A stretch of DNA of 64,000 nt from an uncultured Woeseiaceae bacterium (GTDB lineage Bacteria > Pseudomonadota > Gammaproteobacteria > Steroidobacterales > Woeseiaceae): positions 1 through 64,000 of the forward strand of contig CAJJBK010000005.1 of assembly GCA_905182415.1 (NCBI GenBank), given 5' to 3'. The translations under genes were made by a program, and so were the position numbers. Below are positions 20,255 to 49,011 of the stretch, piece after piece; position 1 is the stretch's first letter; each line of letters opens with the position of its first letter. Under the pieces are notes generated by a model. That model ran no database searches. It was not told the origin of the DNA and saw only the letters and a program-made list of their open reading frames with translations.

Positions 20255-20301
20255 GATTAAATGAACGAAGATAATTATAAGAACAGTGCTTGAGGTATTC
20301 A

Positions 20302-20901
20302 GTGTCGTTAGAAATAAGAAAAATCGTGATACATGATGAAGAAACTCTAATTGAAGGATTTTGTGAAGCACAAAATCCCCTCAGAATGTTCGCAGTGGCA
20401 GCGGTCATAAGAAATCCATGGTCTGGTAGATACGTGGATGATTTAAAGCCAGACATTTTGTCTATCGCTCCTCCTTTGGGTGAGGAATTAACTCAAAGAA
20501 TTATAGAGTTAGCAGGCGGTGGAGAAAAAATAGAGGCCTATGGTAAAGCTGCTGTCGTGGGGCTTGACGGAGAAATAGAACACGCCTCTGCCTTGATACA
20601 TACTTTGCGATTCGGGAATTTTTACAGAGAGGCTGTAGGAGCAAAAAGTTATTTATCCTTCACGAATACTCGTGGCCCTGCCAATGCCCCAATTATGGTT
20701 CCGTTGATGGATAAAAATGATGCCGGTCGTCGTTCTCACTACTTAACCATTCAGTTTTCTATTGCAGATGCTCCAAGGGCGGATGAGATTGTAGTTGTTC
20801 TAGGGGGCTCAATTGGCGGTCGTCCTCATCATCGTATTGGTGATCGCTATCAAGACTTAAAAGATCTCGGTCATGATGTGGAAAACCCTGCCTCGGTATA
20901 G
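20302..20901 (+). CDS. AA_synth (PF06684, DUF1185) family protein
   Basis: A 199-aa protein. GTG 20302 is preferred because GAGGT lies 5-9 bases upstream. Characteristic stretches are FAVAAVIRNPWSGRYVDDLKP, GEKIEAYGKAAVVGLDGEIEHASALIH, TRGPANAPIMVPLMDKNDAGRRSHYLT, and DEIVVVLGGSIGGRPHHRIGDRYQDL, which are typical of the family annotated as amino-acid synthesis. The biochemical role is not established. It lies directly before a hydrolase and luciferase-like monooxygenase and overlaps the former by 29 bases. This combination recalls trigonelline degradation clusters. Confidence 0.85.
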   Translation: MSLEIRKIVIHDEETLIEGFCEAQNPLRMFAVAAVIRNPWSGRYVDDLKPDILSIAPPLGEELTQRIIELAGGGEKIEAYGKAAVVGLDGEIEHASALIHTLRFGNFYREAVGAKSYLSFTNTRGPANAPIMVPLMDKNDAGRRSHYLTIQFSIADAPRADEIVVVLGGSIGGRPHHRIGDRYQDLKDLGHDVENPASV

Positions 20902-21685
20902 AACTACTAATAATATTGCCTATTACAAGACTGGTAATGGTCCGGCTATTCTTCTGATTCACGGCGTGGGTTTGAGACTAGAAAGTTGGAATGCCCAAAT
21001 AAATATTCTCAGTCAAGAGCACACCGTGTATGCCATCGACTTGCCGGGCCATGGAGAAAGTGATCAGTTAATACTAGAATCACCCAATATAGATCTTTAT
21101 ACACAACAAATAAAATTATTTGCAGACGAAATGATCACTGGTGCTTTTATAGTGATGGGGCATTCTCTGGGTGCTCTGATCGCGATTCGTTTTGCCCATT
21201 TGCATAAAAAATATTGTCTTGGTGTTGTGGCATTAAATTGTGTTTATCAACGCTCCAAAAAAGCAATGAGTTTTGTCAAGTCGCGTGCAACAAAACTTGC
21301 TCTAGAGGGGCCCAAAAATATTATTCCTCAAACAATTGATCGATGGTTTGGAGAAAATCCAACGGGTTCTAATATAGAAATAGCTAGTACTTGTAAGCAA
21401 TGGTTAGAAGCAACAAATATAGAAGGTTATAGCCATGCTTATAACACTTTCGCTCATGAAGATGGGGTCGCAGAAAAGTTATTGATAATGAATAATTTGC
21501 CCATCGCATTTATAACAGGTACGTTAGACTCAAATTCAACGCCATTAATGAGTCAGGATATGGCGACGACCTCTCCTTTTGGAATGGTGGAATTAATCCC
21601 AGAAGCGGGTCATATGGCACAAATGACTCACTCAAAAGAGGTTGGTGAAGTACTGCGATTATTTGCACTGGGCATTAGAAATTAA
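20873..21685 (+). CDS. Alpha/beta hydrolase (TgnD-like candidate)
   Basis: A 270-aa alpha/beta hydrolase: oxyanion motif LIHGVGLRLESW, AIDLPGHGESD, nucleophile S98 in the elbow VMGHSLGAL, acid Asp in ITGTLDSNS, and catalytic His in PEAGHMAQMTH. It overlaps the AA_synth gene by 29 bases and precedes the LLM monooxygenase by 14. In the characterised trigonelline pathway a hydrolase of this fold (TgnD) deformylates and breaks down the ring-opened product. Context supports that role here but sequence alone cannot prove it. The enzyme is cytoplasmic, with no signal peptide. Confidence 0.85.
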   Translation: MMWKTLPRYRTTNNIAYYKTGNGPAILLIHGVGLRLESWNAQINILSQEHTVYAIDLPGHGESDQLILESPNIDLYTQQIKLFADEMITGAFIVMGHSLGALIAIRFAHLHKKYCLGVVALNCVYQRSKKAMSFVKSRATKLALEGPKNIIPQTIDRWFGENPTGSNIEIASTCKQWLEATNIEGYSHAYNTFAHEDGVAEKLLIMNNLPIAFITGTLDSNSTPLMSQDMATTSPFGMVELIPEAGHMAQMTHSKEVGEVLRLFALGIRN

Positions 21686-21699
21686 TATAACGAGATAGT

Positions 21700-22740
21700 T
21701 TGATGAAATTTTCACTTTTTGCGCATATGGAACGCACAAGTCAACAGCAATCATATGTTGATTCATACGATGAGTTCTTGCGGTTGTGTCAGCTGGCAGA
21801 TCAAGGTGGAATGCATGCAATATGGACGGGCGAACATCATTGTATGGATTTTACTATTGCCCCTAATCCATTTATTAATATCGCTGACTTAGCCAGTAAA
21901 TTGGATAATGTACGCTTAGGGACTGGCACTATCATCGCGCCATTTTGGCATCCAATCAAGTTGGCTGGTGAATCGGCTATGACGGATATAATTACATCGG
22001 GAAGACTAGAACTGGGTATTGCAAGAGGGGCTTATAGCTATGAATATGAACGTTTAATGCCAAGCATGAACGCTTGGGAGGCTGGCGCTCGTATGCGAGA
22101 AATGATACCGGCGATTCAAGGACTGTGGAGCGGTAATTATAAGCACGATGGAGAGTACTATAAATTTCCAGAATCAACGTCAACTCCAAAACCAATGCAA
22201 TCATCAGGCCCACCTATTTGGATCGCTGCAAGAGATCCAAATAGTCATGAATTTGCTATAAAAAATAATTGTAATGTTCAGGTTACTCCTCTCTGGCAAG
22301 GCTATAAAGAAGTAAGAGATTTGATAGCTCGCTTTAAAGATGCTCAGATTAAATGTCAAAATAAAGCCCAATCAAAAATAATGTTGTTGCAGCATACATT
22401 TGTAGCAGGTTCCGATGATGAGATAGATTATGCGGCCAAAAAATTCAGTGAGTTTTATGGCCACTTTGGTGCGTGGTTTAAAAATGAAAGACCAGTAGAT
22501 CAAGCCTTAATGAAAAAATTATCTGTTTCAGAATTAGAAGCGCTTGATATGTATTCTCCTTCCGTTATGAAAGATAATTTAGCCATTGGTAATTCAACGG
22601 ATGTGATAAATCTGCTAAAAAAATATGAGGAGCTTGGCTATGATGAATTTGCTTATTGGATTGATTCAGGAATGAGTTTCGAGCTTAAAAAAGCATCTTT
22701 AGATAGGTTTATTAACGAAGTTATGCCGGCTTTTCAGTAA
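21700..22740 (+). CDS. Luciferase-like flavin monooxygenase (TgnA-like candidate)
   Basis: A 346-aa bacterial-luciferase-fold protein. It opens MMKFSLFAHMERTSQQQS, then IWTGEHHCMDFTIAPNPF, VRLGTGTIIAPFWHPIKLAGE, SGRLELGIARGAY, and PPIWIAARDPNSHEFAIKN. This run of motifs is the one I associate with the oxygenase part of the pyridine-ring-cleaving trigonelline system (TgnA), which uses reduced flavin from a partner reductase. No flavin reductase gene is in the window. It sits between the hydrolase and an aldehyde dehydrogenase, as in that pathway. Assignment as TgnA is inference; the LLM family assignment is firm. Confidence 0.9.
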   Translation: MMKFSLFAHMERTSQQQSYVDSYDEFLRLCQLADQGGMHAIWTGEHHCMDFTIAPNPFINIADLASKLDNVRLGTGTIIAPFWHPIKLAGESAMTDIITSGRLELGIARGAYSYEYERLMPSMNAWEAGARMREMIPAIQGLWSGNYKHDGEYYKFPESTSTPKPMQSSGPPIWIAARDPNSHEFAIKNNCNVQVTPLWQGYKEVRDLIARFKDAQIKCQNKAQSKIMLLQHTFVAGSDDEIDYAAKKFSEFYGHFGAWFKNERPVDQALMKKLSVSELEALDMYSPSVMKDNLAIGNSTDVINLLKKYEELGYDEFAYWIDSGMSFELKKASLDRFINEVMPAFQ

Positions 22741-22757
22741 TCAATGGGTTATTAAAT

Positions 22758-24245
22758 ATGACTATTAAGGAAAAAATACCTCATTATTCACTTTTTATAA
22801 ACGGCGAATTTATTGAGGGAGAAAAAAAAGAAAGTATAGAGAGTATCAACCCTCATACTGGAAAGGTATGGGCAACGTTTTCTGCCGCTAACGATGTTGA
22901 TGTAAACCGTGCAATATCGATAGCAAAACGATCAATGGAAAAAGGCAAGTGGGCAGATATGCTGCCCTCAATGCGAGGTAAATTATTGTTTACTCTGGCT
23001 GATTTAATCGAAAAGCACGCTTCTTTTCTGGGCGAAATAGAAACCAAGGATAGTGGTAAATTACTTGTCGAGACAGCCACTCAAACAAAATATGTTGCTG
23101 ATTATTACCGTTATTATGCTGGCTTGGCAGACAAAATAGAGGGCGCAACTTTACCGATTGATAAACCGGATATGCATGTCTTCACTACCTGTGAACCGAT
23201 TGGCGTGGTCGCAGCGATAGTTCCTTGGAATGCACAAATGTTCCTTACTGCAACAAAACTAGCTCCGGCACTGGCAGCTGGTTGCGCTACTATTATCAAA
23301 GCATCTGAAATTGCCCCATGTGCATTATTGTATTTTGGGAGGCTAATTAAAGAGGCAGGATTTCCAGATGGTGTCGTCTCAATTATTACTGGAGATGCAA
23401 AAAATTGTGCCGTTCCATTAACGACACATCCCGATATTGATCGAATTGCATTTACTGGAGGACCGGAAACAGCTAAACAAATTATTATTAATTCAGCGGA
23501 AAATTTTGCTGTTACCACGCTTGAATTGGGCGGTAAATCTCCAATAATAATTTTTGAAGATGCAGATATTGACAGTGCAGTTAATGGAATTATTGCTGGA
23601 AATTTTGGCGCATCAGGGCAATCTTGTGTAGCTGGATCAAGAGTGATTGTGCATGAATCAATAAAAAATGACGTGATAGCTAGGCTCATAAAAAAAGTCA
23701 ACCACATCAGAGTTGGCAGCCCAACAGACCCAGAGACTCATGTGGGTCCGCTATGTACCGAAAAGCAAATTATATTAATTGAAAACACATTAAAGAAAGC
23801 CACTTCACAGGGAGCTAAAATACAATTTGGCGGGAAGCGAAAACAAAGTGAAGGATATTATTTTGAACCCACATTGGTGGATTGCCCTAATGAATCGATT
23901 GCCACACTTGAGGTTGAAATGTTTGGTCCAGTAATGTCAATGCTGTCTTTCGAGAGTGAAGAAGAGGCGATTGATTTAGCTAATAATAGTTCATACGGGC
24001 TTGGCTCAGGTGTATTTACAACTAATTTGGCTCGCGCACACCGTGTTTCAAAAAAGATTAAGGCAGGTATTTGTTGGATTAATAGCTATCGAGCAATTTC
24101 TCCTATTGCTCCGTTTGGTGGTTATAATCGATCGGGTTATGCCAGAGAAGCAGGTATTCAGGCAATAAATGATTACGTGAGGACAAAAACTACTTGGATT
24201 AATATATCTGATGAGCCTATGGCTAATCCATTTGTCATGCGCTAA
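22758..24245 (+). CDS. NAD(P)-dependent aldehyde dehydrogenase (TgnC-like candidate)
   Basis: A 495-aa ALDH with catalytic C290 in FGASGQSCVAGSR, general base E256 in TTLELGGKSP, the NAD pocket VAAIVPWNAQ and AFTGGPETAK, and the C-terminal APFGGYNRSGYAREAG. It ends the plus-strand set (AA_synth, hydrolase, LLM, ALDH), 17 bases after the monooxygenase. In trigonelline breakdown an ALDH (TgnC) oxidises the hydroxybutyrolactone intermediate; this gene fits that place. It converges with the BCCT gene 25 bases later, with no clear terminator between them. Confidence 0.9.
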   Translation: MTIKEKIPHYSLFINGEFIEGEKKESIESINPHTGKVWATFSAANDVDVNRAISIAKRSMEKGKWADMLPSMRGKLLFTLADLIEKHASFLGEIETKDSGKLLVETATQTKYVADYYRYYAGLADKIEGATLPIDKPDMHVFTTCEPIGVVAAIVPWNAQMFLTATKLAPALAAGCATIIKASEIAPCALLYFGRLIKEAGFPDGVVSIITGDAKNCAVPLTTHPDIDRIAFTGGPETAKQIIINSAENFAVTTLELGGKSPIIIFEDADIDSAVNGIIAGNFGASGQSCVAGSRVIVHESIKNDVIARLIKKVNHIRVGSPTDPETHVGPLCTEKQIILIENTLKKATSQGAKIQFGGKRKQSEGYYFEPTLVDCPNESIATLEVEMFGPVMSMLSFESEEEAIDLANNSSYGLGSGVFTTNLARAHRVSKKIKAGICWINSYRAISPIAPFGGYNRSGYAREAGIQAINDYVRTKTTWINISDEPMANPFVMR

Positions 24246-24270: not shown

Positions 24271-25905
24271 TTATTGAGTTGAGTTAGAGTCATCATTTAA
24301 TAACGACTTAATCAGTGAAATAACCATAAGTGCCATGACGACTGAAAACGGCAGAGCACCTATAATCATTATTGATCGCAATGCTTCCATTCCTCCAGCT
24401 GCTAACAATACGCCGATAAGTACCGAGAATAGGACCCCCCAAATCACTATATGCTTAGCTTGTTTTTGACTTTGACTGCCACCTGATGCCAGCGTAGTGA
24501 TGATCAAAATACCTGAATCTGCTGAAGTGACTAAAAAGGTTAATAGTAATGTCACAATGACTAAGGAGAGCGCGATGGATAAACCCGGTGAAAGTATTAA
24601 ATTAATTGTTTCGAATAATTGCGCTGAAATATCTGCATTAACGATGGCACCCTGAGCGATACCGTCCAGTTCAAGGTCAATTGCTGTAGCACCGATGAAG
24701 GTGATCCATACCAAGCAGATTAAAGAAGGAATAATCATTGCGCCGATGACATACTCGCGAATGGTTCTGCCCCGAGAGACGCGAGCTAAAAATAAACCGA
24801 CAAAAGGAGCGAAAGCGATCCACCAGGCCCAATAAAAGATAGTCCAAGTACTTTGCCATCCTTGTAATGCAGCAGAGGGTTCAACGCCGTTATCTTTCCA
24901 AACCGTGGTAGACATCGCTGGAAGGGCGATTAGGTAATCCCATATTGTGTAAAAAAAGGTTTCTAAGGCAAAAAAGGTAGCGCCAAATAAAATGAAAAAG
25001 GCAATTAAGAAAACCGATAAACTCATATTAATATTTGACAACCACTTGATGCCTTTTTTCAAACCCGACATAGCAGAAACACAAGAAGCACTAACGATTA
25101 GAGTTAATCCGAATAACTGAGCTAGAAGAGTTGGCTTCCCGCTGCCATCTATCAACCACGTTGCACCACTTATATTGAAAAGGCCAGAGGCAAATTGTGA
25201 TACACCATAACCAATCGTCACACTTAGACCAACGATAGTGGCTAAGATAGCAACGATATCAACAACGTGTCCCGCACCGCCCGACATAGCTCGGCCAAAA
25301 AGAGGTTGTAAGGCACTTCGAATTGTTAGAGGCAAGTTACGATTATAGGCTAAATATCCCAGTGAAATACCAATCACACCATAACAAGCCCAGGGCGTGA
25401 GGCCATAATGCAACATAGCCCATTTATAGGCATTACGAACATTATTTTCATCCAGTCCAGTGGTTAATCCCCTGATCGTGTCTGGGTTAGTGGCGAAGTG
25501 AGAAAGAGGTTCGGCAGTAGAATAAGTGAGCATCCCTATACCTATACCAGCACCAAACATCATTGAGATCCATGAGAAGGTACTAAATTCTGGCTTTTCA
25601 TTAGGTTTACCCAGTTTTATATGAGCCGTGCGAGGCCAAAATCCAAGGCATAAACAAGCAATGGTATAAAATGCAGTGACATAGACATACCAGGTTCCAA
25701 AGGTCTCAGTCGACCAATTTTGTGCTTCCAATAATATTTGGCCGGTAGTGGAAGGCGAGATACCCACCCACATAATTAGCCCACCAATTAATAATTTTGG
25801 TATCACAGCAACAACACGATTAAAGCCTTTATAGAATCCAGACTGATCTGTATTTATGAATACGGCTGGTTGCTGCTGACTTGAGGGTGAATTATCCAAA
25901 ATCAT
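24271..25905 (-). CDS. BCCT-family betaine/quaternary amine transporter 1
   Basis: A 544-aa secondary carrier with 12 predicted helices. Family landmarks are FSWISMMFGAGIGIGMLTYSTAEP (the Gly-rich helix 3 of BetP) and FYWAWWIAFAPFVGLFLARV in helix 8. Compared with the usual WWxSWxP, the last Trp is Phe here, and the segment is AFAP, which alters the aromatic box for trimethylammonium groups. The ending is RSIMIIGALPFSVVMALMVI. It is the last gene after the DUF3726-like gene (33 bases) and probably imports the substrate of that operon or of the adjacent LLM set. Confidence 0.9.
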   Translation of the reverse strand: MILDNSPSSQQQPAVFINTDQSGFYKGFNRVVAVIPKLLIGGLIMWVGISPSTTGQILLEAQNWSTETFGTWYVYVTAFYTIACLCLGFWPRTAHIKLGKPNEKPEFSTFSWISMMFGAGIGIGMLTYSTAEPLSHFATNPDTIRGLTTGLDENNVRNAYKWAMLHYGLTPWACYGVIGISLGYLAYNRNLPLTIRSALQPLFGRAMSGGAGHVVDIVAILATIVGLSVTIGYGVSQFASGLFNISGATWLIDGSGKPTLLAQLFGLTLIVSASCVSAMSGLKKGIKWLSNINMSLSVFLIAFFILFGATFFALETFFYTIWDYLIALPAMSTTVWKDNGVEPSAALQGWQSTWTIFYWAWWIAFAPFVGLFLARVSRGRTIREYVIGAMIIPSLICLVWITFIGATAIDLELDGIAQGAIVNADISAQLFETINLILSPGLSIALSLVIVTLLLTFLVTSADSGILIITTLASGGSQSQKQAKHIVIWGVLFSVLIGVLLAAGGMEALRSIMIIGALPFSVVMALMVISLIKSLLNDDSNSTQ

Positions 25906-25938
25906 TGCTCCTAATAATTATTGTAAGTAACTTTTTAG

Positions 25939-26700
25939 TTATTCACCCGCACCAAGTCGGGACTGTTCACTTGCTTCGACCAATATCTGATCAGCTATAT
26001 ACAAGAGTCTTGTATATTGAGCAGTCTCAATATAAAGACCGCTTGTTATTTTCTCATTAAAACGTTGTTTAAATTCACATGCTAGAATTTCTCGAGTCAC
26101 TTTTCCTTTTTGTGAAAGAGGTGGAATCTTTAAATAAGACTCAATGGAATTAATACTATCTTTAGAGCATATCAAATCTAATTCAGACTTGTTATTGAGT
26201 ATTGAATTATTTATTTTTATTGTTGAATAATTTGGATACATTTCATTGGGATTGATACTCGCTAAATACAGTAAATTTTTTTCTGGTTCTGCCCACCATG
26301 CTTTCGCGTAATAACCATATTGACTGCATTTAATGAGGCTAGGGAGAATAACAATAGGTTGAAGTGTATTGTTGATATTAGAATGACAGATATTATCTTG
26401 ATGGCATTTTGCCAATGTCATATCAGTAATAATACTGCCTGTATGCATGAGGCTATGCTTCTGATTATCAAAGACAAAACGTTTTTTATTATCTTTTAAA
26501 AGGACAGGTGTGAGATTTAGTTTTTTAGGGTTCACGTCAGTTATCCCTAGAAAATTAATAATTCCCATAAGATCGTGAATTTCAAGCCATTGAATGATTG
26601 CTGCTGTATCTTCGAAATCATATTTATGACCATAATATGACTCACAGGCACGATTTAGCAGAGCTTTGAATTCATTGATTGAAATTCTAATGAATTTCAT
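25939..26700 (-). CDS. DUF3726-like protein
   Basis: A 253-aa protein with probable similarity to DUF3726: a helical start ISINEFKALLNRACESYYG, then AAIIQWLEIHDLMGI, a long middle region, and a C-terminal YIETAQYTRLLYIADQILVEASEQSRL. No transmembrane or signal segment and no recognisable catalytic motif is present. Three cysteines and several histidines cluster at KCHQDNICHSN, which could bind metal, but this is weak. Its ATG overlaps the end of the 575-aa gene by 14 bases. Function unknown; the coupling points to a shared complex or pathway. Confidence 0.6.
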   Translation of the reverse strand: MKFIRISINEFKALLNRACESYYGHKYDFEDTAAIIQWLEIHDLMGIINFLGITDVNPKKLNLTPVLLKDNKKRFVFDNQKHSLMHTGSIITDMTLAKCHQDNICHSNINNTLQPIVILPSLIKCSQYGYYAKAWWAEPEKNLLYLASINPNEMYPNYSTIKINNSILNNKSELDLICSKDSINSIESYLKIPPLSQKGKVTREILACEFKQRFNEKITSGLYIETAQYTRLLYIADQILVEASEQSRLGAGE

Positions 26701-28414
26701 TTCCTTTGCTCATTTGATTATTTGGCATGATGGGGAAGATCCAATCATCTTTATATTTAGAGCCAATATCAGAGGTAATTGGCGCTCCTTGGAACATCGT
26801 ATTACGAACCCATAGTCGAGACTTAGGGTCAAATTTTCCAACGCCAAAAAACGATAACTTACAGCGCAATAAATGTATTGGCAGCACATCTTTATCAAGT
26901 AAATTTGCTTGTATTTCACCGTATTTTGTTTTTGCCATTGTTTGTATACGCCGAATAATTTGACGATGCTCGGGGTAGGCGAATACGAATTCAGCAACAT
27001 TATTAATATTTATTTCTGGAGGTAATTTATTAAGAGTTGAATGACATTGTTCAACAGCGCGAGCAATACCGATCAGTATTTCTTTTTCAGCACCCTGATC
27101 AATGTCTCTATCACCAAGTCTTGGCTCCATTTTTTCTTCAGATCGATACCAGAAAACTGCGTTTGCATTTTTGGAATTGAAATCGTATTGCAACGCCCAT
27201 TGATATTGCTTTTCTATAATTTGTCTGAGATCCAATAATTTCATTTCTGGGGACAATTCATATCTTTCCTCAATGTCATGGTTTTCTTCTAGAGACAATA
27301 CTTCTTCAGGATGGATTTCGATTAAGATGGTATTAATGAGTTCTTGCGCTTCAACATTATAGTGGTTGGTTACATAGTCTATAAATTGATCCCACTCTTG
27401 AAGAGTTTCTTTGCTCAGCCACTTTATGATCGAGCCTAGCGATTGACTAGCCTCTAGATTAATTTTATTTTGTGACTCATTATTGGTCGTTATTTCATTT
27501 AAATGAATGATGGCACGTTGTATCAATAAATTAAGAGCTTGCAGGGTATTTTTATTCGGTAGTGTATTGCTTATAACTTGTGCTAATGCAAATTCTCTCG
27601 TTTCGATCCAGCTATTGATTAATAAAGGATGCTTGATTAAAAAAGGCGCCATCCCAAGACCAGTAGCATTACCAATCCCAAAATACCTTTTTATGTCATC
27701 ATCGAGACGAACTGCTAACTCAGGTGCACGCTTGAATGCAATATGATCGGCTTGATCTAGGCTGAACTGTCTGATCATAAAACAAGCAAACATTTCAGCT
27801 GAAAATGGCTCTTTGAAGTCTTGATAAGCTAATTTTATTTTGCCCCAATCAGCCATTCCGAATTTACCGCTTCCATAAACAGCCGTTGTTCGATACAAAT
27901 ATCCAACCTCATTAATTTTTTTGATACAAGGCTGCATACCAGAACTGAGTTGATTGACCACATATTCAAAGTTACGGCTGCTTTTATTGGCTCTTGATAA
28001 CACTAAGCTTTCTGCTGACATTCTACCTTTTTCTTGGCGTGGCACATTTTCTTTCAGCGTCTCTAATTCATCTGGTTTAAAGGGTCCATGCCGAAGCGTA
28101 ACTGTCATGTCCCACGCCTCTGCAATCACTCTATCTGTTCGAAGAGTGCTATCTAGAAAATTGGCAAATACGACAAAATGATAACAATTGCTTGGAGTGG
28201 TTATCTCATAAACAGCTTCACCATAACCTTCTTTATCTAAATTAAACAAGACGCGATTAATGTTCCACTGCTCTTGCATAACTTTTCTCATTAACTTTCG
28301 CATAAAACTGAGTTTATAAGGGTAAAAGCTTCCTAGTCGATTGAGATCCATGACTTTTGCTGGGCTTCTTAAGCTCGTTTTTGCTTGCTTAAGGCTGTGA
28401 CTATGATTATTCAT
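26687..28414 (-). CDS. 575-aa conserved hypothetical protein
   Basis: I do not recognise a named family. Notable segments are LNRLGSFYPYKLSFMRKLMRKV, EAVYEITTPSNCYHFVVFANFL, TVTLRHGPFKPDELETL, TTAVYGSGKFGMADWGKI, and ERLDDD-like acidic runs around residue 235 (VRLDDDIKRYFGIGNATGLGMAPFL). The C-terminal third holds FWYRSEEKMEPRLGDRDIDQG and LRCKLSFFGVGKFDPKSRLW. It is soluble, with no signal. Two Gly-rich stretches could bind a cofactor or nucleotide but match no standard motif. Its start overlaps the upstream dipeptidase-like gene as ATGA and its end overlaps the DUF3726-like gene by 14 bases, showing strong co-translation. Confidence 0.8.
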   Translation of the reverse strand: MNNHSHSLKQAKTSLRSPAKVMDLNRLGSFYPYKLSFMRKLMRKVMQEQWNINRVLFNLDKEGYGEAVYEITTPSNCYHFVVFANFLDSTLRTDRVIAEAWDMTVTLRHGPFKPDELETLKENVPRQEKGRMSAESLVLSRANKSSRNFEYVVNQLSSGMQPCIKKINEVGYLYRTTAVYGSGKFGMADWGKIKLAYQDFKEPFSAEMFACFMIRQFSLDQADHIAFKRAPELAVRLDDDIKRYFGIGNATGLGMAPFLIKHPLLINSWIETREFALAQVISNTLPNKNTLQALNLLIQRAIIHLNEITTNNESQNKINLEASQSLGSIIKWLSKETLQEWDQFIDYVTNHYNVEAQELINTILIEIHPEEVLSLEENHDIEERYELSPEMKLLDLRQIIEKQYQWALQYDFNSKNANAVFWYRSEEKMEPRLGDRDIDQGAEKEILIGIARAVEQCHSTLNKLPPEININNVAEFVFAYPEHRQIIRRIQTMAKTKYGEIQANLLDKDVLPIHLLRCKLSFFGVGKFDPKSRLWVRNTMFQGAPITSDIGSKYKDDWIFPIMPNNQMSKGNEIH

Positions 28415-29415
28415 GAGTCTTTATTAGGCATGGGTGGAAAGGACGACAAGAAGAAATTTAACCAATTTTTACCCATGATTTTTTCTATGTCTTGATCACT
28501 GAAACTTACTGCTTGTAGGCCATCAATTAAGTTTTGAAATCCCAAATTATTTTTAAACCAGTCTGGTTGTTTGGGCCATGTAGGTTGTTCAGCATTACCT
28601 TCACCAAAGTCAGGTGTGAGCGCCCATCTACCACTGCGCATCCACTCTAAGACGGTATAGTCCCAGTTAAGGCATAAATCTGAGCCAATACCAATGCGAT
28701 CTATACCCATAAATTCAGCTGTGTCATAGATCATATTGCAAAATTCTTCTAAGGTGCAATCAGAACCTTTAGCAAGGTGAAAAGGGTAAAGACTCACGCC
28801 TAGCATACCTTTAGATTGACTGAGATTCTTGAGAACATCATTTGATTTATTTCTTAATGCTGCGTGGAAAGTAGTTGGATTTGCATGCGTGATTGCAATT
28901 GGCCGAGTAGAAATTTCTATGGCTTGCAAGGTTGAATGCTCGGCACTGTGCGACATATCGATGATCATGCCGAGACGATTCATTTCTTTGATGGCCACTT
29001 TGCCAAACCGAGTGATGCCTGAATCTCTCTCTTCATAGCAACCAGTGGCAAGTAAGCTTTGATTGTTGTAACTGAGTTGCATTATACGTGCGCCTAGATG
29101 GTGCATTTCTTCGATAAGACGAACATCGTCTTCCACGGGAGAGCAATTTTGAAAGCCAAAGATAATACCAATTTTATTATTATCTTGAGCGACTTGAATG
29201 TCCTCAGCACTTCTGATTGGCATAATTAGATCAGCATGTTCTGTGAAATGTTTATTCCAGTTATCAATATTTTGGATGACTTCTTTTCGATTTTCCCAAT
29301 AGGCGATAGTGACATGAATCACATTAAGACCACCGCGCTTTGCTTCTTTAAAAAGCTCTCGATTCCAATTTACATATTGGAGGCAATCAATAATTAATAT
29401 GTCATTGGTATTCAT
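28411..29415 (-). CDS. M19 (membrane dipeptidase)-like protein with altered metal site
   Basis: A 334-aa TIM-barrel protein of the peptidase M19 family. Conserved parts include IMQLSYNNQSLLATGCYE, GMIIDMSHS (H156), ITHANPTTFHAALRN (H177) and MGIDRIGIGSDL. Renal-dipeptidase-type enzymes begin with HxD and have a bridging Glu. Here these positions read IDCLQYVNW and FGFQN, so two of the usual zinc ligand groups are missing. It is therefore probably not a classical dipeptidase; a mononuclear hydrolase or lyase is possible. Its start shares one base with the ALDH stop (TAATG), and its stop overlaps the next start (ATGA). Confidence 0.8.
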   Translation of the reverse strand: MNTNDILIIDCLQYVNWNRELFKEAKRGGLNVIHVTIAYWENRKEVIQNIDNWNKHFTEHADLIMPIRSAEDIQVAQDNNKIGIIFGFQNCSPVEDDVRLIEEMHHLGARIMQLSYNNQSLLATGCYEERDSGITRFGKVAIKEMNRLGMIIDMSHSAEHSTLQAIEISTRPIAITHANPTTFHAALRNKSNDVLKNLSQSKGMLGVSLYPFHLAKGSDCTLEEFCNMIYDTAEFMGIDRIGIGSDLCLNWDYTVLEWMRSGRWALTPDFGEGNAEQPTWPKQPDWFKNNLGFQNLIDGLQAVSFSDQDIEKIMGKNWLNFFLSSFPPMPNKDS

Positions 29416-30854
29416 TATGAAGAAATATAGGTAGTTTTAACGATAGTATAAAACTCTTTAGCATAGGATCCTTGTTCACGAGGTCCGTAGCTTGAGGATT
29501 TTCTGCCACCGAACGGGACATGGTAGTCGGTTCCAGCGGTTGGCAGATTAACCATTACACAGCCCGATTCAGAGTGTCGTTTAAAGTGACTGGCTTGTTT
29601 GAGTGATTGAGTAATAATCCCTGAAGTTAGGCCAAAGTCAGAGTCATTAGAGATAGCCAATGCTTCTTCATAACTATCAGCTTTTATAACACAAGCAATT
29701 GGTCCAAATACTTCCTCACGATTAATTTCCATCTGATTGTTGGTTTCTGTAAATAAGGTAGGACGCATATAAAATCCATTATGACTCACTGTAATTGACT
29801 CATCACCAGCTATCATTTTGGCGCCAGCTTTTTGAGCAGATGCTATGTATTTTTTATTTTGCTCAAATTGACGTGAATCAACCACAGGACCAATTTGTGT
29901 TGTCTTATCTAATGCATTGCCGACAATCAATGTTTGTGTTGCTGTGATCATTTTTTCAACGAACTCATCGTGAATGCCAGCTTCAACAATTAATCTAGAG
30001 GATGCAGTGCATTTTTGTCCGGTACCAAAAAATGCGCCGTTAATGGCGCATTGGACGGCAATATCAATATCAGCATCATTCAGGATGACTAGCGCATTTT
30101 TGCTGCCCATCTCTAATTGAATTCGTGTCATATTTTTAATGGCTTTTTGTGCTATCAAGTTGCCTGTTTTGACTGAGCCTGTAAATGAAATAGCATCAAT
30201 GTCTTTTGATTCTGAGAGTGTCTCACCGGCAATACTTCCTGGTCCTTGTATACAGTTAAATACACCTTTTGGTAAACCACTTCGATGCAATATATCAGCA
30301 AATGCAATTGCACTGGCTGGCACAATTTCAGAAGGTTTGAGGACAACACAATTACCAAAAGCAAGGGCAGGTGCTATTTTCCAGGCAGCGACTGCTATGG
30401 GGAAGTTCCAAGGCGTAATGACGCCAATTACGCCCAATGGTTCTCTAGTGACTTCAACATTGATATTGGGTCGAGTGGAAGTGGCCAGTTCACCCATCTG
30501 CCTGAGAACTTCTGCGCCGAAGTATTGAAAGAATTGTCCCGATCGATATACTTCACCAATGCCTTCGGCCAGGGGTTTACCTTCTTCTCGCGCAATTAAT
30601 TCACCAATTTCGGTACTGCAATTAATGAGCTCATCACCAATATAATCGAGTATTTTTTTTCTCTCTTCCAGTGAACTAGCTGACCATTCATTAAAAGCAT
30701 CTCTAGCACTTTTGATGGCCAATAAACTGTCTTCTTTAGAGGCTGCATGAAAAGTACCAATACAATCCGTTGTATCAGAAGGATTGATGCTGGTGAATGA
30801 TTGCCCATTATTAAGCCATTGACCATTAATTAAGTTACTTCCTAAATTTGACAT
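29415..30854 (-). CDS. Aldehyde dehydrogenase (ketoglutarate-semialdehyde type)
   Basis: A 479-aa ALDH from ATG 30854, preferred because GAGGA is close upstream and the longer frame (30884) adds no conserved sequence. Catalytic Cys is in FGTGQKCTASSRL, the base Glu in RIQLEMGSKNA, and the NAD site in GVITPWNFPIAV and SFTGSVKTG. The C-terminal AGTDYHVPFGGRKSSSYGPREQG resembles alpha-ketoglutarate-semialdehyde and related semialdehyde dehydrogenases. It is the first gene of the coupled set ALDH, M19-like, 575-aa, DUF3726-like, BCCT. A semialdehyde from betaine or amino-acid breakdown is a reasonable substrate; this is inference. Confidence 0.9.
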   Translation of the reverse strand: MSNLGSNLINGQWLNNGQSFTSINPSDTTDCIGTFHAASKEDSLLAIKSARDAFNEWSASSLEERKKILDYIGDELINCSTEIGELIAREEGKPLAEGIGEVYRSGQFFQYFGAEVLRQMGELATSTRPNINVEVTREPLGVIGVITPWNFPIAVAAWKIAPALAFGNCVVLKPSEIVPASAIAFADILHRSGLPKGVFNCIQGPGSIAGETLSESKDIDAISFTGSVKTGNLIAQKAIKNMTRIQLEMGSKNALVILNDADIDIAVQCAINGAFFGTGQKCTASSRLIVEAGIHDEFVEKMITATQTLIVGNALDKTTQIGPVVDSRQFEQNKKYIASAQKAGAKMIAGDESITVSHNGFYMRPTLFTETNNQMEINREEVFGPIACVIKADSYEEALAISNDSDFGLTSGIITQSLKQASHFKRHSESGCVMVNLPTAGTDYHVPFGGRKSSSYGPREQGSYAKEFYTIVKTTYISS

Positions 30855-30923
30855 TTCTTCCTCAGATAAAGAATGTTTGCACATAAACTATACGTGAATC
30901 GATTACTAGTTATTGTAACTAAC

Positions 30924-32906
30924 TTAAACAAGATCTCCCAATGCATTTTTAAGAGGCTGCAACCAGGGCTCATAGTTTTTCCATTGCTCTAATCCGCTTT
31001 TATAGATGGGTTGTCTTACTTGTTCTGAACTAGGTGTTCTGACATTTCTTTTGGTTTGATGAAAGTTAATGCAATTTTCTTCAAAAGGAAGTTCACAATA
31101 ATCAAGAATGCGATGCACTTCACGGTCTAAGTTAGCCACCACATTTTCATATTGAACACGAAGAATTTTCCCGGGAAGTATTTCATCCCAATGATCCATT
31201 ACTTTTACGTAATCACGATAATAAGTTCCAATTTCTTCTAAACCATAAGAGAATTGTTGCCCACTGGCGAATAGCTGTTTGAAACCACTAAAGCAACAAG
31301 CCATTGGTTCTCGTCGCGCATCAATTATTTTTGCATTTGGAAGAATCAATCGTATTAAAGCAATATGTCGAAAATTATTGGGCATTTTATCAATAAAGTA
31401 AGGCGCTTTTTTCCGATGAATTCGAGTTTCTTCAATATAATTTTCACCGAAGGCCTTTAGTTTTTCAGGATCGAGTGTGCTTAAATTAGCAGGATAATCT
31501 GGCGTCTGATTAATGGTTTTTCTACCTGCGAGTTTATAGGCAAGTGCTGGAATATTGGGTAATTCTAGAGTTCCATCAACTTGAGAGTGTGAGGCTAAAA
31601 TTTGCTCTAATAAGGTCGAGCCTGCTCTAGGTAATCCGACTATAAAAATGGGGGCTGAATCTAGATGACCTTGATTATGTTTTGCATTAAATAGATCAAC
31701 ATTACAATGCGCTTGTTGTAAGGCAAGAATCTTAGTCATGTTTTCTTGAGTATAGTCGTGTTTCGTTTTTTGTAAGGTATTACCTCTTTCATAATAATAG
31801 AATGATTTTTTGAATTGTTTTTGATCCTCATAATGTTTGCCAAGGGCAAAACAAAGATGAATTCTGTTAGTTGCTACGGTGGCGCTCATGGCCTCTTTTT
31901 CAGTCATTAAAGTAACTTCTTGATCGGTAAATTTATATGTCTTTAAATTAGCCATACTCCAATAAGCGTCACCAAAATCATTGCGTGCCGCATATGCTTT
32001 TCGATAAGCCTCAATTGCTGCGTCTTTTTTACCAATAGTTTTAAGGGCGTGCCCATGAACTAATCTTAGTTCTGGGTCATTTGGAGTAATTTTGTTTGCC
32101 TTGTCATAGATATTCAATGCTGTCTTATAATCACCTACCGCTATGGATTGATTAGCAAAAGCTATTTTATATTTAAGGTTGCTAGGCTCTTTCTTAATTA
32201 GGATTTTTGCTTGCTCAAGCGATTGCTTGTATTTTTGACGTCGATACAAAACAACCATATAGTCGTGCCTGGCAAAATTGTTTTCTGGTTCGAACTCAAG
32301 TGCTTTTTCGAGCAAAAATTCAGCATCATCTAGAACGTCAGCAGCAACACCAAGGCTAGCTAATAAACGCATTCCCTCGACATTTTTTTTATTCTTTTGC
32401 AAAAATTGTCGACATAACTGTTCTGCATCATAGCTATGACCTTCAGAAATCATGTTACGAACGCTTAATAATTCATCGGGTAACGCTTTTAATTTTTCAT
32501 ATTCGGTATTTGTGATTTTCGCGTTATCATGATTGCCTTGTTTGGTATGGATTTTTGTTAAACCGGCCCAACTCGCTATTAAGGAGTTATTAAGCGAAAC
32601 GGCATGTCGATAAGCATAAAGCGCCTGACTGGTGAATCCAGCAGCCATACAAACATGCCCTTCTTCTTGAAAAGCTCTGCCATATCCAGGACGAATTTTT
32701 TTTAACTGCCTTAAGGTTGCAAGCGCCTCTTCTAGCCTATTAAGGTATCTTTGGCATACGGCTTTAATATAGAGGGCTTTTCCATTTTCAGGATATTGCT
32801 CAAGGATGACTTCTGTTTTTTTCTCAGCTTCAACCAGACGACTGTTTGCTAGAAGTGATCTTGCTTCTTCTAATGCAACATCGATTTGTTCTTTATTATT
32901 CATCAT
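30924..32906 (-). CDS. TPR-containing sulfotransferase
   Basis: A 660-aa fusion. Residues ~1-340 are tetratricopeptide repeats (for example YPENGKALYIKAVCQRYLNR, AIEAYRKAYAARNDFGDAYW). Residues ~420-650 are a sulfotransferase domain with the PAPS 5'-phosphosulfate loop FIVGLPRAGSTLLEQILASH, the 3'-phosphate region ARREPMACCFSGFKQLF, and VQYENVVANLDREVHRILDYC. Such TPR-sulfotransferases are common in marine proteobacteria and may sulfate surface glycans or small molecules. No signal peptide is present, so it is cytoplasmic. It lies 70 bases upstream of the ALDH start and may or may not be in that operon. Confidence 0.9.
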   Translation of the reverse strand: MMNNKEQIDVALEEARSLLANSRLVEAEKKTEVILEQYPENGKALYIKAVCQRYLNRLEEALATLRQLKKIRPGYGRAFQEEGHVCMAAGFTSQALYAYRHAVSLNNSLIASWAGLTKIHTKQGNHDNAKITNTEYEKLKALPDELLSVRNMISEGHSYDAEQLCRQFLQKNKKNVEGMRLLASLGVAADVLDDAEFLLEKALEFEPENNFARHDYMVVLYRRQKYKQSLEQAKILIKKEPSNLKYKIAFANQSIAVGDYKTALNIYDKANKITPNDPELRLVHGHALKTIGKKDAAIEAYRKAYAARNDFGDAYWSMANLKTYKFTDQEVTLMTEKEAMSATVATNRIHLCFALGKHYEDQKQFKKSFYYYERGNTLQKTKHDYTQENMTKILALQQAHCNVDLFNAKHNQGHLDSAPIFIVGLPRAGSTLLEQILASHSQVDGTLELPNIPALAYKLAGRKTINQTPDYPANLSTLDPEKLKAFGENYIEETRIHRKKAPYFIDKMPNNFRHIALIRLILPNAKIIDARREPMACCFSGFKQLFASGQQFSYGLEEIGTYYRDYVKVMDHWDEILPGKILRVQYENVVANLDREVHRILDYCELPFEENCINFHQTKRNVRTPSSEQVRQPIYKSGLEQWKNYEPWLQPLKNALGDLV

Positions 32907-32999: not shown

Positions 33000-35801
33000 T
33001 TAGAAGTCGTATGAGACTCTAAAACCCATAGTACGTGGGCGGTTAGTGGTAGCTCTTTCGAAGAAGTCTTGTCTGTTGATGTGCAACTGTGCACGTTCGT
33101 CAGTTAAGTTCTTCACATAGAACTCCATGCCCCAGTTATTATTTATATTTTTCACGCCAACTGAAGTATCAAAAACTGTATAAGCTTTTTGAAATACATT
33201 TGGCTCGTCAGTCGTATCAACTATTGAGTTAAGCGCTTTTCCTGCATGCTTCATACCCAATTGATAGTAGATACTTCCGTTTGCTGTTTCCCGCTCATAT
33301 TTACCTCGAATGGTATATTGTAATTCAGGAGTCAAAGGCAATTGACGACCTTCATCTTGAACTACGAGAGCAAAGGCTGGATCAACACGAGTCAATTCAG
33401 TTTTATTATATGAACCAGCTGCATAGACAGTTAGATTGTCTGTGGCTGCCCATGTAAGATCGCCTTCCATTCCTTTGATTTCAGCATCACCACCATTATC
33501 AACAAGTGTAAATATTGAGATGTTTTGCGAATCGAAATGTGACACTTGAATGTCTTTCCAGTCGATCATATAGATTGCACCATTGAAACGTAAACGACCA
33601 TCAAACATAGTTGATTTCCAGCCGAACTCAGTACTTTCCATCACGTCTGATCTGAACACATAAGGTAAGCAGTATCCGGGGAAGCCAGTGCTTGCTTTTG
33701 CATCAATAGCTCCTTTAGTACCACAAACTATCTCATTAGCTAGACCTGCGTTTGCTTTATTGTTTGCAGTTGCATCATAAACACCTAGTTTAGCCGCGCC
33801 TCGGTTGAAACCACCGGGCCGATAACCCTCAGACCATGTTGTGTACAATAAGAGATCATCATTTGGCGTGTAAGACAAAGTGAATTTCATCATTGTATCT
33901 TTGGTGCTGATAGGTCTAATTGCCGATGTAAATTTAGTGGCATAATCACGACCACCAGTGACATTAGGTCTAACGTCATTTGAAGGGTCGGCATCATCTG
34001 TCAATAATGGACGATTACCGTATCTCCATGCGCCGTATCCTGTGAAGTTATAATCTAAATCATATTTACGTGCACTCACAGCTACATTCAATTCATCGCT
34101 GAGTTGAAAATCAATCTCACCAAACACTGCTGTTTGCTTTTCTGTTCTGAGATTGTCATTTCTAAACTGCGTTGCACCATTTACAACACCTCTTGCATTA
34201 GCAGATGCCGTACCAAATGTGCCTGGCGATCTATTGATATCGATTCCAGCAAACCCTGCTTCGTATGGTGCCATGTAGTTAAAATTACCGATGTGCTTGA
34301 TTTCGAAATCTTCAGCATAAACACCACCTTGCATGTTGACCATACCATCCCAGTTTGTAGCGAATCGTATCTCATTGGTCATGCGCGTCATTTCATTTTG
34401 CAGTCCTACAGCATTTGCTGGATTACCACACTCAATCACGCCAGGATTACCGCTTAGTGTTGGATCATAACCATACCTTGCTACTGTATTAACAGGAGCG
34501 ACATAATCTGCTGCTGCTACAGCACCTGTTGGATTAAGTGTTGTGTCTGGATTGACTGCACCTTTCACATCTCCCAATTTTCCAACTACAAGAGTTTCCC
34601 CTACGCCTGCACCAGTATAATAACCGGCACCAGTCAAGTATTCACATTGATATCCTGATATAGATCCACCAATATTGGTATAGCCAGTGTAATCAAGTTG
34701 TGCATCAACTGAACGATCTAAGAACGCACCTGTATAAACAATATCAATATCACCTATTGAACCATTTAGAGTCCAAGCAGTTGTATTGAACGAATCATCT
34801 AATTTGTCAGGCGTGAACCGCGATACTTTGAGATCTCCTTTGGCCATATCATAATCCCAAACACCTTCTGTTTTGAGGGACTGAGTGGTATTTTGGAGAA
34901 GTAGATCCCAGTTTTCATTAAGTACCCACTTAAGACCCATCCTAGCGCCTGCATAGTGTGCATCATTAAAGTCATCTTCAACCATTGAATCATTTCTTGC
35001 TGCTGTATAATTAACTGGAATTGTTGTACCAGCTGCGATTTCTGTTCCGTTAAAGAATCTGGTTGCTTTAGCGTACGTAACACCAGTTGTTTTAGGGAAT
35101 GTTGGGTTTTTCGCATTACTAGCAGTAAATGTTCCTGCTACATTATCAATGTAACCACCTTGATTATCATTATAAAGAGCTAACCTGAATGCCATTTTAC
35201 CTTCAACCAATGGAACATTAAGCATCATTTCAGCTGAGTTTGAATTCTCACCACCTGATGTAGATGCAAAACCGCCATTAAAGCTTGCTTGGAATTCATC
35301 AATCACTGGTTTGTTAGTAATTAATCTTACTGTACCCGCCATTGAGCTGGCACCATATAAAGTACCTTGTGGTCCAGGAAGTACCTCAATACGTTCCATA
35401 TCAGTAACATAGACATCTAAGTTACGACCGCCTGATGTAACTGGTTGCTCATCTAAGTAGAGTGCCACGTTTGGAGCGGAACCTTGAGATTCTGCAACCG
35501 TGATATTAATCGCATCGACTGCGGCACCACGAATGTAGATTTCATTTTGTCCTGGTCCACGTCCACCAGCATTAACGCTTGGTAGATATTTCACGTAGTC
35601 ACTGAAGCTTTGAATATTTTCGTCTTCTAGTCGTTGTGCGTCCATTGCTTGCACGGCAAGTGGAATATCTTGCATGCTAGCTGACCGTTTTGTTGCCGTG
35701 ACTGTAATTTCTTCTATTGCTTGTGCATGCACTGCTGAAGTAGCAGCAGTTGCTGACATCGCAAGTAGTACAGCTTGATGTACTTTGTTTACCTTAAGCA
35801 T
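33000..35801 (-). CDS. TonB-dependent outer-membrane receptor
   Basis: A 933-aa receptor from ATG 35801, with GGGGGA 8 bases upstream and a signal peptide (MLKVNKVHQAVLLAMSATAA to HAQA). Next come the TonB-box-like IEEITVTATKR, the plug domain (SFSDYVKYLPSVNAGGRGPG, YIRGAAV, YLDEQPV, ERIEVLPGPQGTLYGASSMAGTVRLITNKP) and a 22-strand barrel ending MGFRVSYDF, with the terminal Phe needed for outer-membrane insertion. Cysteines in the middle loops (YQCEYLTG, VIECGNPAN, EIVCGTKG) are notable. The ligand is unknown; the barrel resembles receptors of marine and sphingomonad-type bacteria for organic molecules rather than siderophores, but that is impressionistic. Confidence 0.95.
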   Translation of the reverse strand: MLKVNKVHQAVLLAMSATAATSAVHAQAIEEITVTATKRSASMQDIPLAVQAMDAQRLEDENIQSFSDYVKYLPSVNAGGRGPGQNEIYIRGAAVDAINITVAESQGSAPNVALYLDEQPVTSGGRNLDVYVTDMERIEVLPGPQGTLYGASSMAGTVRLITNKPVIDEFQASFNGGFASTSGGENSNSAEMMLNVPLVEGKMAFRLALYNDNQGGYIDNVAGTFTASNAKNPTFPKTTGVTYAKATRFFNGTEIAAGTTIPVNYTAARNDSMVEDDFNDAHYAGARMGLKWVLNENWDLLLQNTTQSLKTEGVWDYDMAKGDLKVSRFTPDKLDDSFNTTAWTLNGSIGDIDIVYTGAFLDRSVDAQLDYTGYTNIGGSISGYQCEYLTGAGYYTGAGVGETLVVGKLGDVKGAVNPDTTLNPTGAVAAADYVAPVNTVARYGYDPTLSGNPGVIECGNPANAVGLQNEMTRMTNEIRFATNWDGMVNMQGGVYAEDFEIKHIGNFNYMAPYEAGFAGIDINRSPGTFGTASANARGVVNGATQFRNDNLRTEKQTAVFGEIDFQLSDELNVAVSARKYDLDYNFTGYGAWRYGNRPLLTDDADPSNDVRPNVTGGRDYATKFTSAIRPISTKDTMMKFTLSYTPNDDLLLYTTWSEGYRPGGFNRGAAKLGVYDATANNKANAGLANEIVCGTKGAIDAKASTGFPGYCLPYVFRSDVMESTEFGWKSTMFDGRLRFNGAIYMIDWKDIQVSHFDSQNISIFTLVDNGGDAEIKGMEGDLTWAATDNLTVYAAGSYNKTELTRVDPAFALVVQDEGRQLPLTPELQYTIRGKYERETANGSIYYQLGMKHAGKALNSIVDTTDEPNVFQKAYTVFDTSVGVKNINNNWGMEFYVKNLTDERAQLHINRQDFFERATTNRPRTMGFRVSYDF

Positions 35802-35822
35802 ATCTGGTTTCCCCCGAGGCAA

Positions 35823-36045: not shown

Positions 36046-37725
36046 CTAAAATAAACCCGTAATACTTTTTGAATCATCTACACCAATATTATCAGAAGCC
36101 GGTTTCCTGGGCAGTCCTGGCATGGTCATAACATCGCCGCATACTACGACAATAAATTCGGCACCCGCAGCAAGTCGGATTTCACGGATAGGAACATCAT
36201 GACCACTGGGAGCTCCAGTGAGTTGCGGGTCAGTAGAAAAACTATACTGGGTTTTTGCCATACAAACCGGGTAATGACCGTAACCTGCTGCTTCAAATTG
36301 CTCGAATTGTGCTCGTACTTTTTTGTCTGCAATAATATCTTGGGCACCATAAATGGTTCTGGCAATATGCTGAGCTTTATCCCAGAGTTTCATGTCATCG
36401 GCATACAGTGTTTTAAATTTAGATGGCTGATTGTCAATGATGTCGATTACATGAGAGGCTAATGCTTCTGCCCCTTTTCCGCCATCAGACCAGTGTGAAG
36501 AAATTTTACAAGCAACGCCAAATTTTTGGCAGTAATCTATAATTGCTTGATGCTCATTTTCTGTATCAGTTACGTAATCATTTATAGCGACGACTACTGG
36601 CACTCCAAATTCACCAATATTTCGAATGTGACGACCTAGGTTCTCACATCCAGCTATTACAGCATCGACATTCTCTTTTTGTAAGTTTGATTTTTCAACT
36701 CCACCGTGCATTTTTAATGCTTTGGTGGTTGCAACTAGAACTACAGCACCTGGGTGAAGTCCTGCTTTGCGACATTTTATATCAAAAAATTTCTCTGCCC
36801 CTAAGTCAGCGCCAAAGCCTGCTTCAGTTACCACATAATCAGCCAGTTTGAGTGCTGTTTTAGTTGCCACAACAGAGTTACAACCGTGAGCAATATTGGC
36901 AAATGGACCGCCATGCATTAAGGCGGGATTATTCTCTAGTGTCTGAACTAAATTAGGCTGGAAGGCATCTTTTAATAGGGCTGTCATCGCGCCTTGTGCA
37001 TTTAACTGGCTAACTTTAACTGGTTCACGTTTTCTTGTGTAACCAATAACCATATTACCAAGACGATTTTGCAGGTCTTTAAGATCTGTCGCTAAGCAGA
37101 ATACTGCCATAACCTCAGAGGCAACTGTGATATCAAAACCACCTTGTCTTGGAATACCATTCCCAGGACCACCAAGGCCAGTAGTGATATCTCTTAAGGC
37201 GCGATCATTCATATCCACAACTCGTTTCCACGTAATTCTTCTTGGGTCAATATCTAGCTGATTTTCCCAGTGGATGTGATTATCTATTAAGGCTGATAAA
37301 AGATTATGCGCAGCACCAATGGCATGAAAATCACCAGTAAAGTGTAAGTTGATGTCTGTCATTGGAATTACTTGTGCATAACCACCACCTGCAGCACCAC
37401 CCTTCATACCAAAACATGGACCTAGGCTTGGTTCTCGCAAACAAATCATGGCGCGTTTACCGATATGACATAAGCCATCCACTAAGCCGACACTCGTTGT
37501 TGTTTTACCTTCACCAGCTGGCGTAGGCGAGATTGCGGTGACTAAAATAAGATGACCATCTTTTTTATCTTTGATTTGATCGATGTATTCGTAAGTCAAT
37601 TTTGCCTTATCATTACCATAAGGAATTAAACTCGATTCCTTTATATCTAATTTCTTTGCAATATCTGCAATAGGCTCTTTATTTGCTGCTTGCGCGATTT
37701 CTAAATCTGAAAGATAGTCTGTCAT
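36046..37725 (-). CDS. fhs: Formate-tetrahydrofolate ligase
   Basis: A 559-aa enzyme (EC 6.3.4.3) that joins formate to tetrahydrofolate with ATP to give 10-formyl-THF, the usual family length. The P-loop is in [19 protein letters not shown] (residues ~62-80). [45 protein letters not shown], the [20 protein letters not shown] segment, and [15 protein letters not shown] at the C-terminus are diagnostic. It is transcribed singly, divergent from the mttB gene 358 bases away. In this setting it can interconvert C1 units released from methyl groups with formate. Confidence 0.97.
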
Positions 37726-39625: not shown

Positions 39626-39681
39626 GTCAGTCGCTAAGATCTTCATATGTTTTCTATAGTTATAAAAGAGGGGAATAGATT

Positions 39682-40395: not shown

Positions 40396-40416
40396 GAAGT
40401 AAACGATACTTAAGCA

Positions 40417-40725: not shown

Positions 40726-40766
40726 ATGTTTTTTGTGTGAAAAAGATCGTTAAGTAGGGGAAAATA

Positions 40767-41630: not shown

Positions 41631-41669
41631 TAGTAAAATATAAACATTCATAATTGTTTGGGAAAAAAA

Positions 41670-45020: not shown

Positions 45021-45023
45021 TAT

Positions 45024-47441: not shown

Positions 47442-47447
47442 TTTTTT

Positions 47448-48989: not shown

Positions 48990-49011
48990 TATTTTTCTCC
49001 AATTATATCTT

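Follow-up and report, generated by a model that had tools for sequence, protein, structure and literature searches.

A widespread gene set around an unclassified 575-residue protein as a candidate betaine catabolic operon

Introduction

Several described systems for the breakdown of betaines and methylated amines resemble an operon found in a 64,000-nucleotide stretch of DNA (contig CAJJBK010000005.1, positions 1 to 64,000; hereafter the window) from an uncultured Woeseiaceae bacterium. The operon encodes an aldehyde dehydrogenase (ALDH), an M19-fold protein, a 575-residue protein without an assigned family (H575), a DUF3726-like protein, and a carrier of the betaine/carnitine/choline (BCCT) family. 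The trigonelline (tgn) pathway also contains an ALDH and breaks down an N-methylpyridine carboxylate; in its TgnA/TgnB system, TgnB is of the LLM type. Unlike this pathway with its TgnA/TgnB, the H575 operon contains neither an LLM monooxygenase nor a flavin reductase. TgnA/TgnB has been argued to be unlikely to act on homarine (PMC8269262). According to another report, the N-methylglutamate dehydrogenase Mgd has a role in the breakdown of homarine (PMC13390433, citing Nat Microbiol 11:1531). The homarine system described there resembles the present one in its Mgd-type enzyme and betaine substrate, and H575 occurs in marine Alphaproteobacteria, including Rhodobacterales.

Two further systems act on N-methylated glycines. 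The dgcAB locus of Vibrio natriegens and Pseudomonas aeruginosa is preceded by genes for a dipeptidase and a hypothetical protein (PMC12093977). The M19 proteins of this N-methylglycine operon and of the H575 operon belong to one degenerate subfamily; however, H575 and DUF3726 are not described there, and the H575 operon lacks dgcAB and ties its M19 protein to ALDH, H575, and DUF3726. Glycine betaine demethylation by MtgBCD (PMC12478193) passes a betaine-derived methyl group to tetrahydrofolate, as the route proposed here would do. The H575 operon has no corrinoid methyltransferase, unlike MtgBCD, although genes for MttB-family, corrinoid, and pterin-binding methyltransferase proteins are present in the same window.

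Betaine breakdown is well supported as the role of the operon. A further reading, somewhat less likely than not, is that H575 and the DUF3726-like protein form a two-protein enzyme whose fold has no example among solved structures. This enzyme would start an undescribed betaine pathway, with an N-methyl amino acid as intermediate and a demethylase of the Mgd/Sox type dedicated to it, in more than half of the sampled SAR11 genomes, Vibrio, Halomonas, Rhodobacterales, Bacillales, and a haloarchaeon.

Operon organization and distribution

The five genes lie on the reverse strand. The ALDH gene (ALDH1, 29415-30884; Pfam Aldedh, 7e-156), whose start is ambiguous between 30854 and an in-frame ATG at 30884, is followed by those of the M19-fold protein of the 2i5g type (28411-29415), H575 (26687-28414), the DUF3726-like protein (25939-26700), and the BCCT carrier (24271-25905; Pfam BCCT, 2.5e-145). 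Inspection of the junctions showed that the ALDH stop and the M19 start share one base (TAATG), and that the M19 stop and the H575 start overlap by four bases (ATGA). H575 and DUF3726 share 14 bases (26687-26700), and 33 bases (25906-25938) separate DUF3726 from the BCCT gene. A previous reading made from the letters alone (the sequence-only reading) had described these five genes with their span and four joins, all of which were exact. The best explanation is that the five genes form one catabolic operon.

A profile search (profile A1) of the GTDB contigs identified at least 583 stretches homologous to H575, and 29 of 399 evenly drawn Pseudomonadota genomes contained it. Neighbourhoods were mapped at 120 loci, 119 of them outside the window, over a distance of at most about 10 kb to either side; the 80 GTDB loci of this map were the best matches and are thus biased to close relatives. 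Within seven open reading frames of H575, the 120 loci contained DUF3726 (108), M19 (106), ALDH (81), BCCT (70), a LysR regulator (66), RidA (41), and a full-length Ldh_2 enzyme (24). DUF3726 immediately follows H575 in 113 of the 119 outside loci, and the two genes overlap in 85 of 108 adjacent pairs. The sequence-only reading had suggested comparing the neighbourhoods of the two unplaced genes. Their homologues indeed co-occur with ALDH, M19, and BCCT or a glycine-betaine-type ABC transporter. They are not mostly apart from these partners: the 32 loci from evenly drawn Pseudomonadota contained M19 and DUF3726 in 28 each, a betaine-type transporter in 22, and ALDH in 18. In Bacillales the order is shuffled (H575, M19, DUF3726, ALDH, IclR, BCCT), and in a haloarchaeon H575 is found with ALDH and BCCT. 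The gene set is also carried on annotated plasmids of Phaeobacter, Ruegeria, Shinella, Aminobacter, and Pseudomonas. In Phaeobacter inhibens DSM 17395 it corresponds to locus tags PGA1_RS19000 to PGA1_RS19015, and a second H575 copy is present in this strain. The operon is a widespread module and not a local curiosity.

The five-gene extent given by the sequence-only reading is probably too short. Upstream of ALDH on the same strand are genes for a TPR-sulfotransferase (30924-32906) and a TonB-dependent receptor (33000-35822), which neighbour H575 in 13 and 10 of the 120 mapped loci, respectively. Both recur beside the gene set in Woeseiaceae, Hellea, and Porticoccaceae records, and the unit may begin at 35822.

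A distant H575 with about 29% identity was found on pSymB of Sinorhizobium meliloti (L165, 12001-22327), followed by a protein of DUF3726 length, then M19, an ABC transporter, a class III aminotransferase, and ALDH. This copy, whose gene context differs, represents a distant subfamily, probably with another substrate, and it was set aside from the main comparison.

Sequence and structural features of the operon proteins

The profile scan of the window proteins assigned no Pfam family to H575. Weak matches to Utp13, DUF7450, and Spo0A_C were rejected, as they lay below the cut-offs and differed between members. The structure predicted from 75 sequences was confident (mean pLDDT 93.4, pTM 0.92). 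However, the best E-value was only 0.059 for the H575 profile against solved structures, and 0.17 (probability below 0.1) for the fold search of the model against the PDB; no relative was found among viral models. The predicted fold is thus without a counterpart among solved structures, and the protein that the sequence-only reading could not place still has no family or solved-structure match. Some 40 residues are invariant in the alignment of relatives; Arg is frequent among them, whereas His and Cys do not occur. This composition suggests that a carboxylate- or phosphate-bearing ligand is bound.

The DUF3726-like protein of the window matches PF12525 with 19.1 bits, below the gathering cut-off of 22.1; five relatives at the same gene position score 26 to 58 bits, all above the cut-off, with a best E-value of 1e-15. 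The AlphaFold2 model (pLDDT 91.5) matched 27 PDB chains at E ≤ 0.001, every one of the Ldh_2 type (type-2 malate/lactate dehydrogenase, imine reductase; PF02615), with delta1-piperideine-2-carboxylate reductase among them. Foldseek gave a probability of 1.00 and TM values of about 0.57-0.67 by query length, and profile-profile comparison with Ldh_2 gave an E-value of 7e-8. The sequence-only reading had treated this protein as an unknown, whereas it can be recognised as an Ldh_2-like relative. It is about 90 residues shorter than the type-2 malate/L-lactate dehydrogenases. The His of the SHG motif is catalytic in Ldh_2 enzymes; in the profile alignment DUF3726 has a gap where the SHG segment lies, and no conserved His is present. 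The C-terminus forms a conserved S-x-x-S-R-x-G-A-G-like tail, which differs from Ldh_2. As modelled, DUF3726 is a shrunken Ldh_2-fold relative without the catalytic His, and it may assist H575 as a partner that is non-catalytic or has taken on another function. None of the papers searched names DUF3726.

The M19 protein belongs clearly to its family (PF01244; 1.8e-72, 244.7 bits against a cut-off of 26). The roles of the M19 metal-site residues are known from renal dipeptidase. At the two HxD metal-ligand positions, Leu is found in 103 and Tyr in 102 of 108 aligned copies; the bridging Glu is replaced by Gln, and the active-site His by Tyr, in 107 of 108 each. The later two His, the Arg, and the Asp are kept in all 108. 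Since the HxD, the bridging Glu, and the active-site His are replaced in nearly all copies, a dipeptidase function is unlikely. The operon M19 protein is probably not a dipeptidase, and its annotation is doubtful. Its nearest solved structure is 2i5g (3.5e-59), presumably PA5396, which is encoded at the dimethylglycine locus of P. aeruginosa.

The nearest curated models for the ALDH are 2,5-dioxovalerate and alpha-ketoglutarate semialdehyde dehydrogenase, both matched below the cut-off. The catalytic Cys and Glu are conserved in its relatives. The BCCT carrier of the window contains the signature region of its family, FYWAWWIAFAPF. The glycine-rich GIGIG stretch differs from the window copy in 58 of 76 carriers. 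The BCCT carriers of the clusters (L044, L088, L098, and others) belong to at least two lineages, which suggests that recruitment of the carrier took place at least twice.

Demethylases linked to H575

Operons annotated as, or similar to, sarcosine oxidase adjoin H575 in Ruegeria TM1040, Phaeobacter, Shinella, and metagenome-assembled genomes of Halieaceae and Hellea. As references, true Mgd was taken from beside gmaS-mgsABC (L173, L175, L177) and sarcosine oxidase from beside glyA (L172, L178). The H575-linked SoxBDAG operons of Ruegeria TM1040, Phaeobacter, Shinella, and one further genome (G174) go with Mgd, at 53-73% identity against about 46% to sarcosine oxidase. No gmaS or mgs genes were found beside those of TM1040 and Shinella, the two loci inspected. 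The Halieaceae copies group with an Acinetobacter type that adjoins dimethylamine monooxygenase, purU, and folD. The generalization that every Sox operon beside H575 is Mgd was rejected; it is false for one locus (L070) and weakly true for SAR11.

The window carries a demethylase set at about 10.7-15.8 kb, with an Mgd/SoxA-like large (alpha) subunit (11281-14238) and its paired SoxB-like beta subunit (14531-15781), both on the reverse strand. This SoxA shares 56% identity with the TM1040 copy, 48-52% with gmaS-linked Mgd, and 40-42% with glyA-linked sarcosine oxidase. In the tree it was placed with Mgd and the H575-linked Ruegeria and Phaeobacter copies, with local support of 0.99-1.00. A second SoxA of the window (53997-56999) groups with sarcosine oxidase. 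The betaine breakdown suggested by the sequence-only reading is strengthened by this linkage of H575 to N-methyl-amino-acid demethylases and betaine transporters.

The SAR11 bacteria are the commonest bacteria in the ocean. The order of the genome that carries locus L113 was read as SAR11 because the Pelagibacterales locus L116 is 83-88% identical to L113 in DNA over about 8 kb, and 86 of 150 genomes of this order contain H575. Two arrangements were found. In one, H575-DUF3726 lies beside M19, an ABC transporter, an FAD oxidase, and ALDH, often with a SoxBDAG operon; in the other, an OpuAC/ProV-type transporter, ALDH, M19, H575, and DUF3726 form a single run. Two SAR11 loci (L201, L206) have an ectoine-hydrolase (DoeA)-like M24 protein and a trans-3-hydroxyproline-dehydratase-like protein beside H575. 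H575 and its own SoxA paralogue (at least 71% identity) are both present in 66 of the 150 genomes, H575 only in 20, SoxA only in 10, and neither in 54 (Fisher p 5e-14, inflated by shared ancestry). The paralogue lies within 8 kb of H575 in 53 of 59 same-contig pairs. In contrast to this association, H575 is independent of gmaS in SAR11 (39, 47, 30, and 34 genomes in the same order; p 0.87), and gmaS is missing from 42 of the 66 genomes with both H575 and the paralogue. The demethylase beside H575 in SAR11 is therefore not for the methylamine route.

Proposed pathway and alternative explanations

From the gene linkage and coupling, the predicted folds, the residue losses, and the demethylase co-occurrence, we infer a substrate class, a reaction order, a complex, and a product. 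The BCCT carrier, replaced elsewhere by a ProVWX-type ABC transporter and here perhaps aided by the upstream TonB receptor, would import a quaternary N-methyl betaine. H575 and DUF3726, which are coupled in synthesis, probably form one complex, which would carry out the step that commits the imported ring or chain to the pathway. The M19-fold protein, together with RidA and the full-length Ldh_2 reductase where present, may process reactive imine/enamine or amide intermediates. The semialdehyde that results, in the simplest case N-methylglutamate gamma-semialdehyde, would be oxidised by the ALDH, giving an N-methyl amino acid, for example N-methylglutamate. Another enzyme, of the Mgd/sarcosine-oxidase type and encoded in the window by the set described above, would pass the last methyl group to tetrahydrofolate and leave glutamate. 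The transporter, the gamma-semialdehyde-type ALDH, and the N-methyl-amino-acid demethylase fit this course, and the N-methyl amino acid formed is probably N-methylglutamate. Leaving homarine aside, a route from a betaine through an N-methyl amino acid to an Mgd/Sox demethylase is, on balance, probable.

Homarine (N-methylpicolinate) is the leading candidate substrate, as a first guess that falls somewhat short of probable. It is favoured by its abundance, by the role of Mgd in its breakdown (PMC13390433), and by the argument that the trigonelline oxygenase is unlikely to use it (PMC8269262). The fold family of DUF3726 also includes delta1-piperideine-2-carboxylate reductase (1wtj), which counts in favour of the proposal. 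Proline-type or other betaines are possible substrates. Several observations weigh against the proposal as a whole. No recognisable cofactor motif was found in H575, and none of the operon genes is an obvious ring-opening or demethylating enzyme. No demethylase is adjacent in the H575 loci of Vibrio, Halomonas, Marinobacter, and Pseudomonas, and the H575-linked Hellea copy (L070) is of the sarcosine-oxidase type. The SoxA adjacent to H575 in SAR11 is only slightly nearer Mgd (42-44% identity) than sarcosine oxidase (37-40%), and the Fisher p-value overstates independence among related SAR11 genomes. Moreover, a second module of the window, at 20290-24245 on the forward strand, would on chemical grounds be better suited to open an N-methylpyridine ring; it is also found in some SAR11. 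It consists of DUF1185/AA_synth, alpha/beta hydrolase, LLM monooxygenase, and ALDH genes (the LLM module), and resembles a two-component ring-opening oxygenase set. A flavin reductase is usual in this module but is missing next to the window copy.

The question of novelty hinges on a 2026 homarine paper, which may already describe these genes. There is a nearly even prospect that the cluster is the published homarine operon, with H575, DUF3726, M19, ALDH, and RidA as its hom genes, in which case only the structural findings are new. That operon is reportedly named homABCDER, with five structural genes and a LysR regulator, and is said to occur in Rhodobacterales and SAR11; H575 is present in both. 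However, none of the papers searched names homABCDER, and the LLM module likewise has five genes and a regulator, in a family that is probably Rhodobacteraceae (f71) and in some SAR11. PMC13390433 cites the 2026 Nature Microbiology pathway (10.1038/s41564-026-02313-7) with Mgd acting in it, and Mgd-type genes adjoin H575. A rather unlikely alternative assigns homarine or trigonelline to the LLM module, and proline betaine, hydroxyproline betaine, or another N-methyl amino acid betaine to the H575 operon. An LLM protein with a flavin reductase does resemble the trigonelline-opening TgnA/TgnB system (PMC8269262), although the same source doubts that system for homarine. The LLM module is conserved in f71, genome G040, Arenicella, and some SAR11. 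It is separable from H575, being absent from Vibrio, Marinobacter, most H575-bearing SAR11, and most H575-positive genomes outside f71; a single pathway for both sets was rejected on this presence across genomes. SAR11 loci also have, close to H575, an Ldh_2 enzyme and a protein of the proline-racemase family that is most similar to trans-3-hydroxyproline dehydratase. The two modules are nevertheless side by side in the genus of the window, in G040, and in Arenicella, and at none of 12 LLM loci was an Mgd-type gene found closer than about 10 kb. Because LLM also occurs in 12 of the 150 SAR11 genomes, gene distribution cannot decide between the two modules for homarine.

It is improbable that the operon is a side branch of glycine betaine catabolism, accessory to dimethylglycine or sarcosine handling. 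The kinship of its M19 protein to 2i5g (presumably PA5396), the dipeptidase and hypothetical genes before dgcAB, and the many glycine betaine genes of the window agree with such a role. However, the window already has a complete-looking MtgBCD and DMGDH/Sox set, H575 in SAR11 is accompanied by a SoxA paralogue of its own and not by a general one, and an ALDH has no place in glycine betaine demethylation. Chance proximity of five unrelated genes is hardly credible. The genome is small (1.8 Mb) and gene-dense, so that short gaps alone are weak evidence; however, the set recurs, shuffled, in gene-rich Vibrio, Halomonas, Pseudomonas, Rhodobacterales, rhizobia, Bacillales, and partly in the haloarchaeon, and these conserved neighbourhoods in hundreds of genomes rule out chance clustering.

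Homarine, glycine betaine, and other betaines make up some of the larger pools of reduced nitrogen and carbon that bacteria receive from phytoplankton. With its occurrence in SAR11, the gene set would mark a flux now overlooked by gene surveys. If H575 performs the first step, it would add a new enzyme architecture, and two common annotations, dipeptidase and DUF3726, would need correction.

Other genes in the window

Most of the window looks like a methylated-amine catabolism island. The region 36046-42572 encodes formate-tetrahydrofolate ligase, an MttB-family protein, a corrinoid protein, an MTHFR-like protein, and a pterin-binding methyltransferase, and resembles the MtgBCD set (PMC12478193). 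The region 42579-56999 contains three DMGDH/GcvT-type fusions, a second MttB-family gene, and a sarcosine-oxidase-type SoxB/SoxA pair. An HpaB-family protein with the 4-hydroxyphenylacetate 3-hydroxylase N and C domains (60229-61752, reverse strand) adjoins a second BCCT gene (58621-60150).

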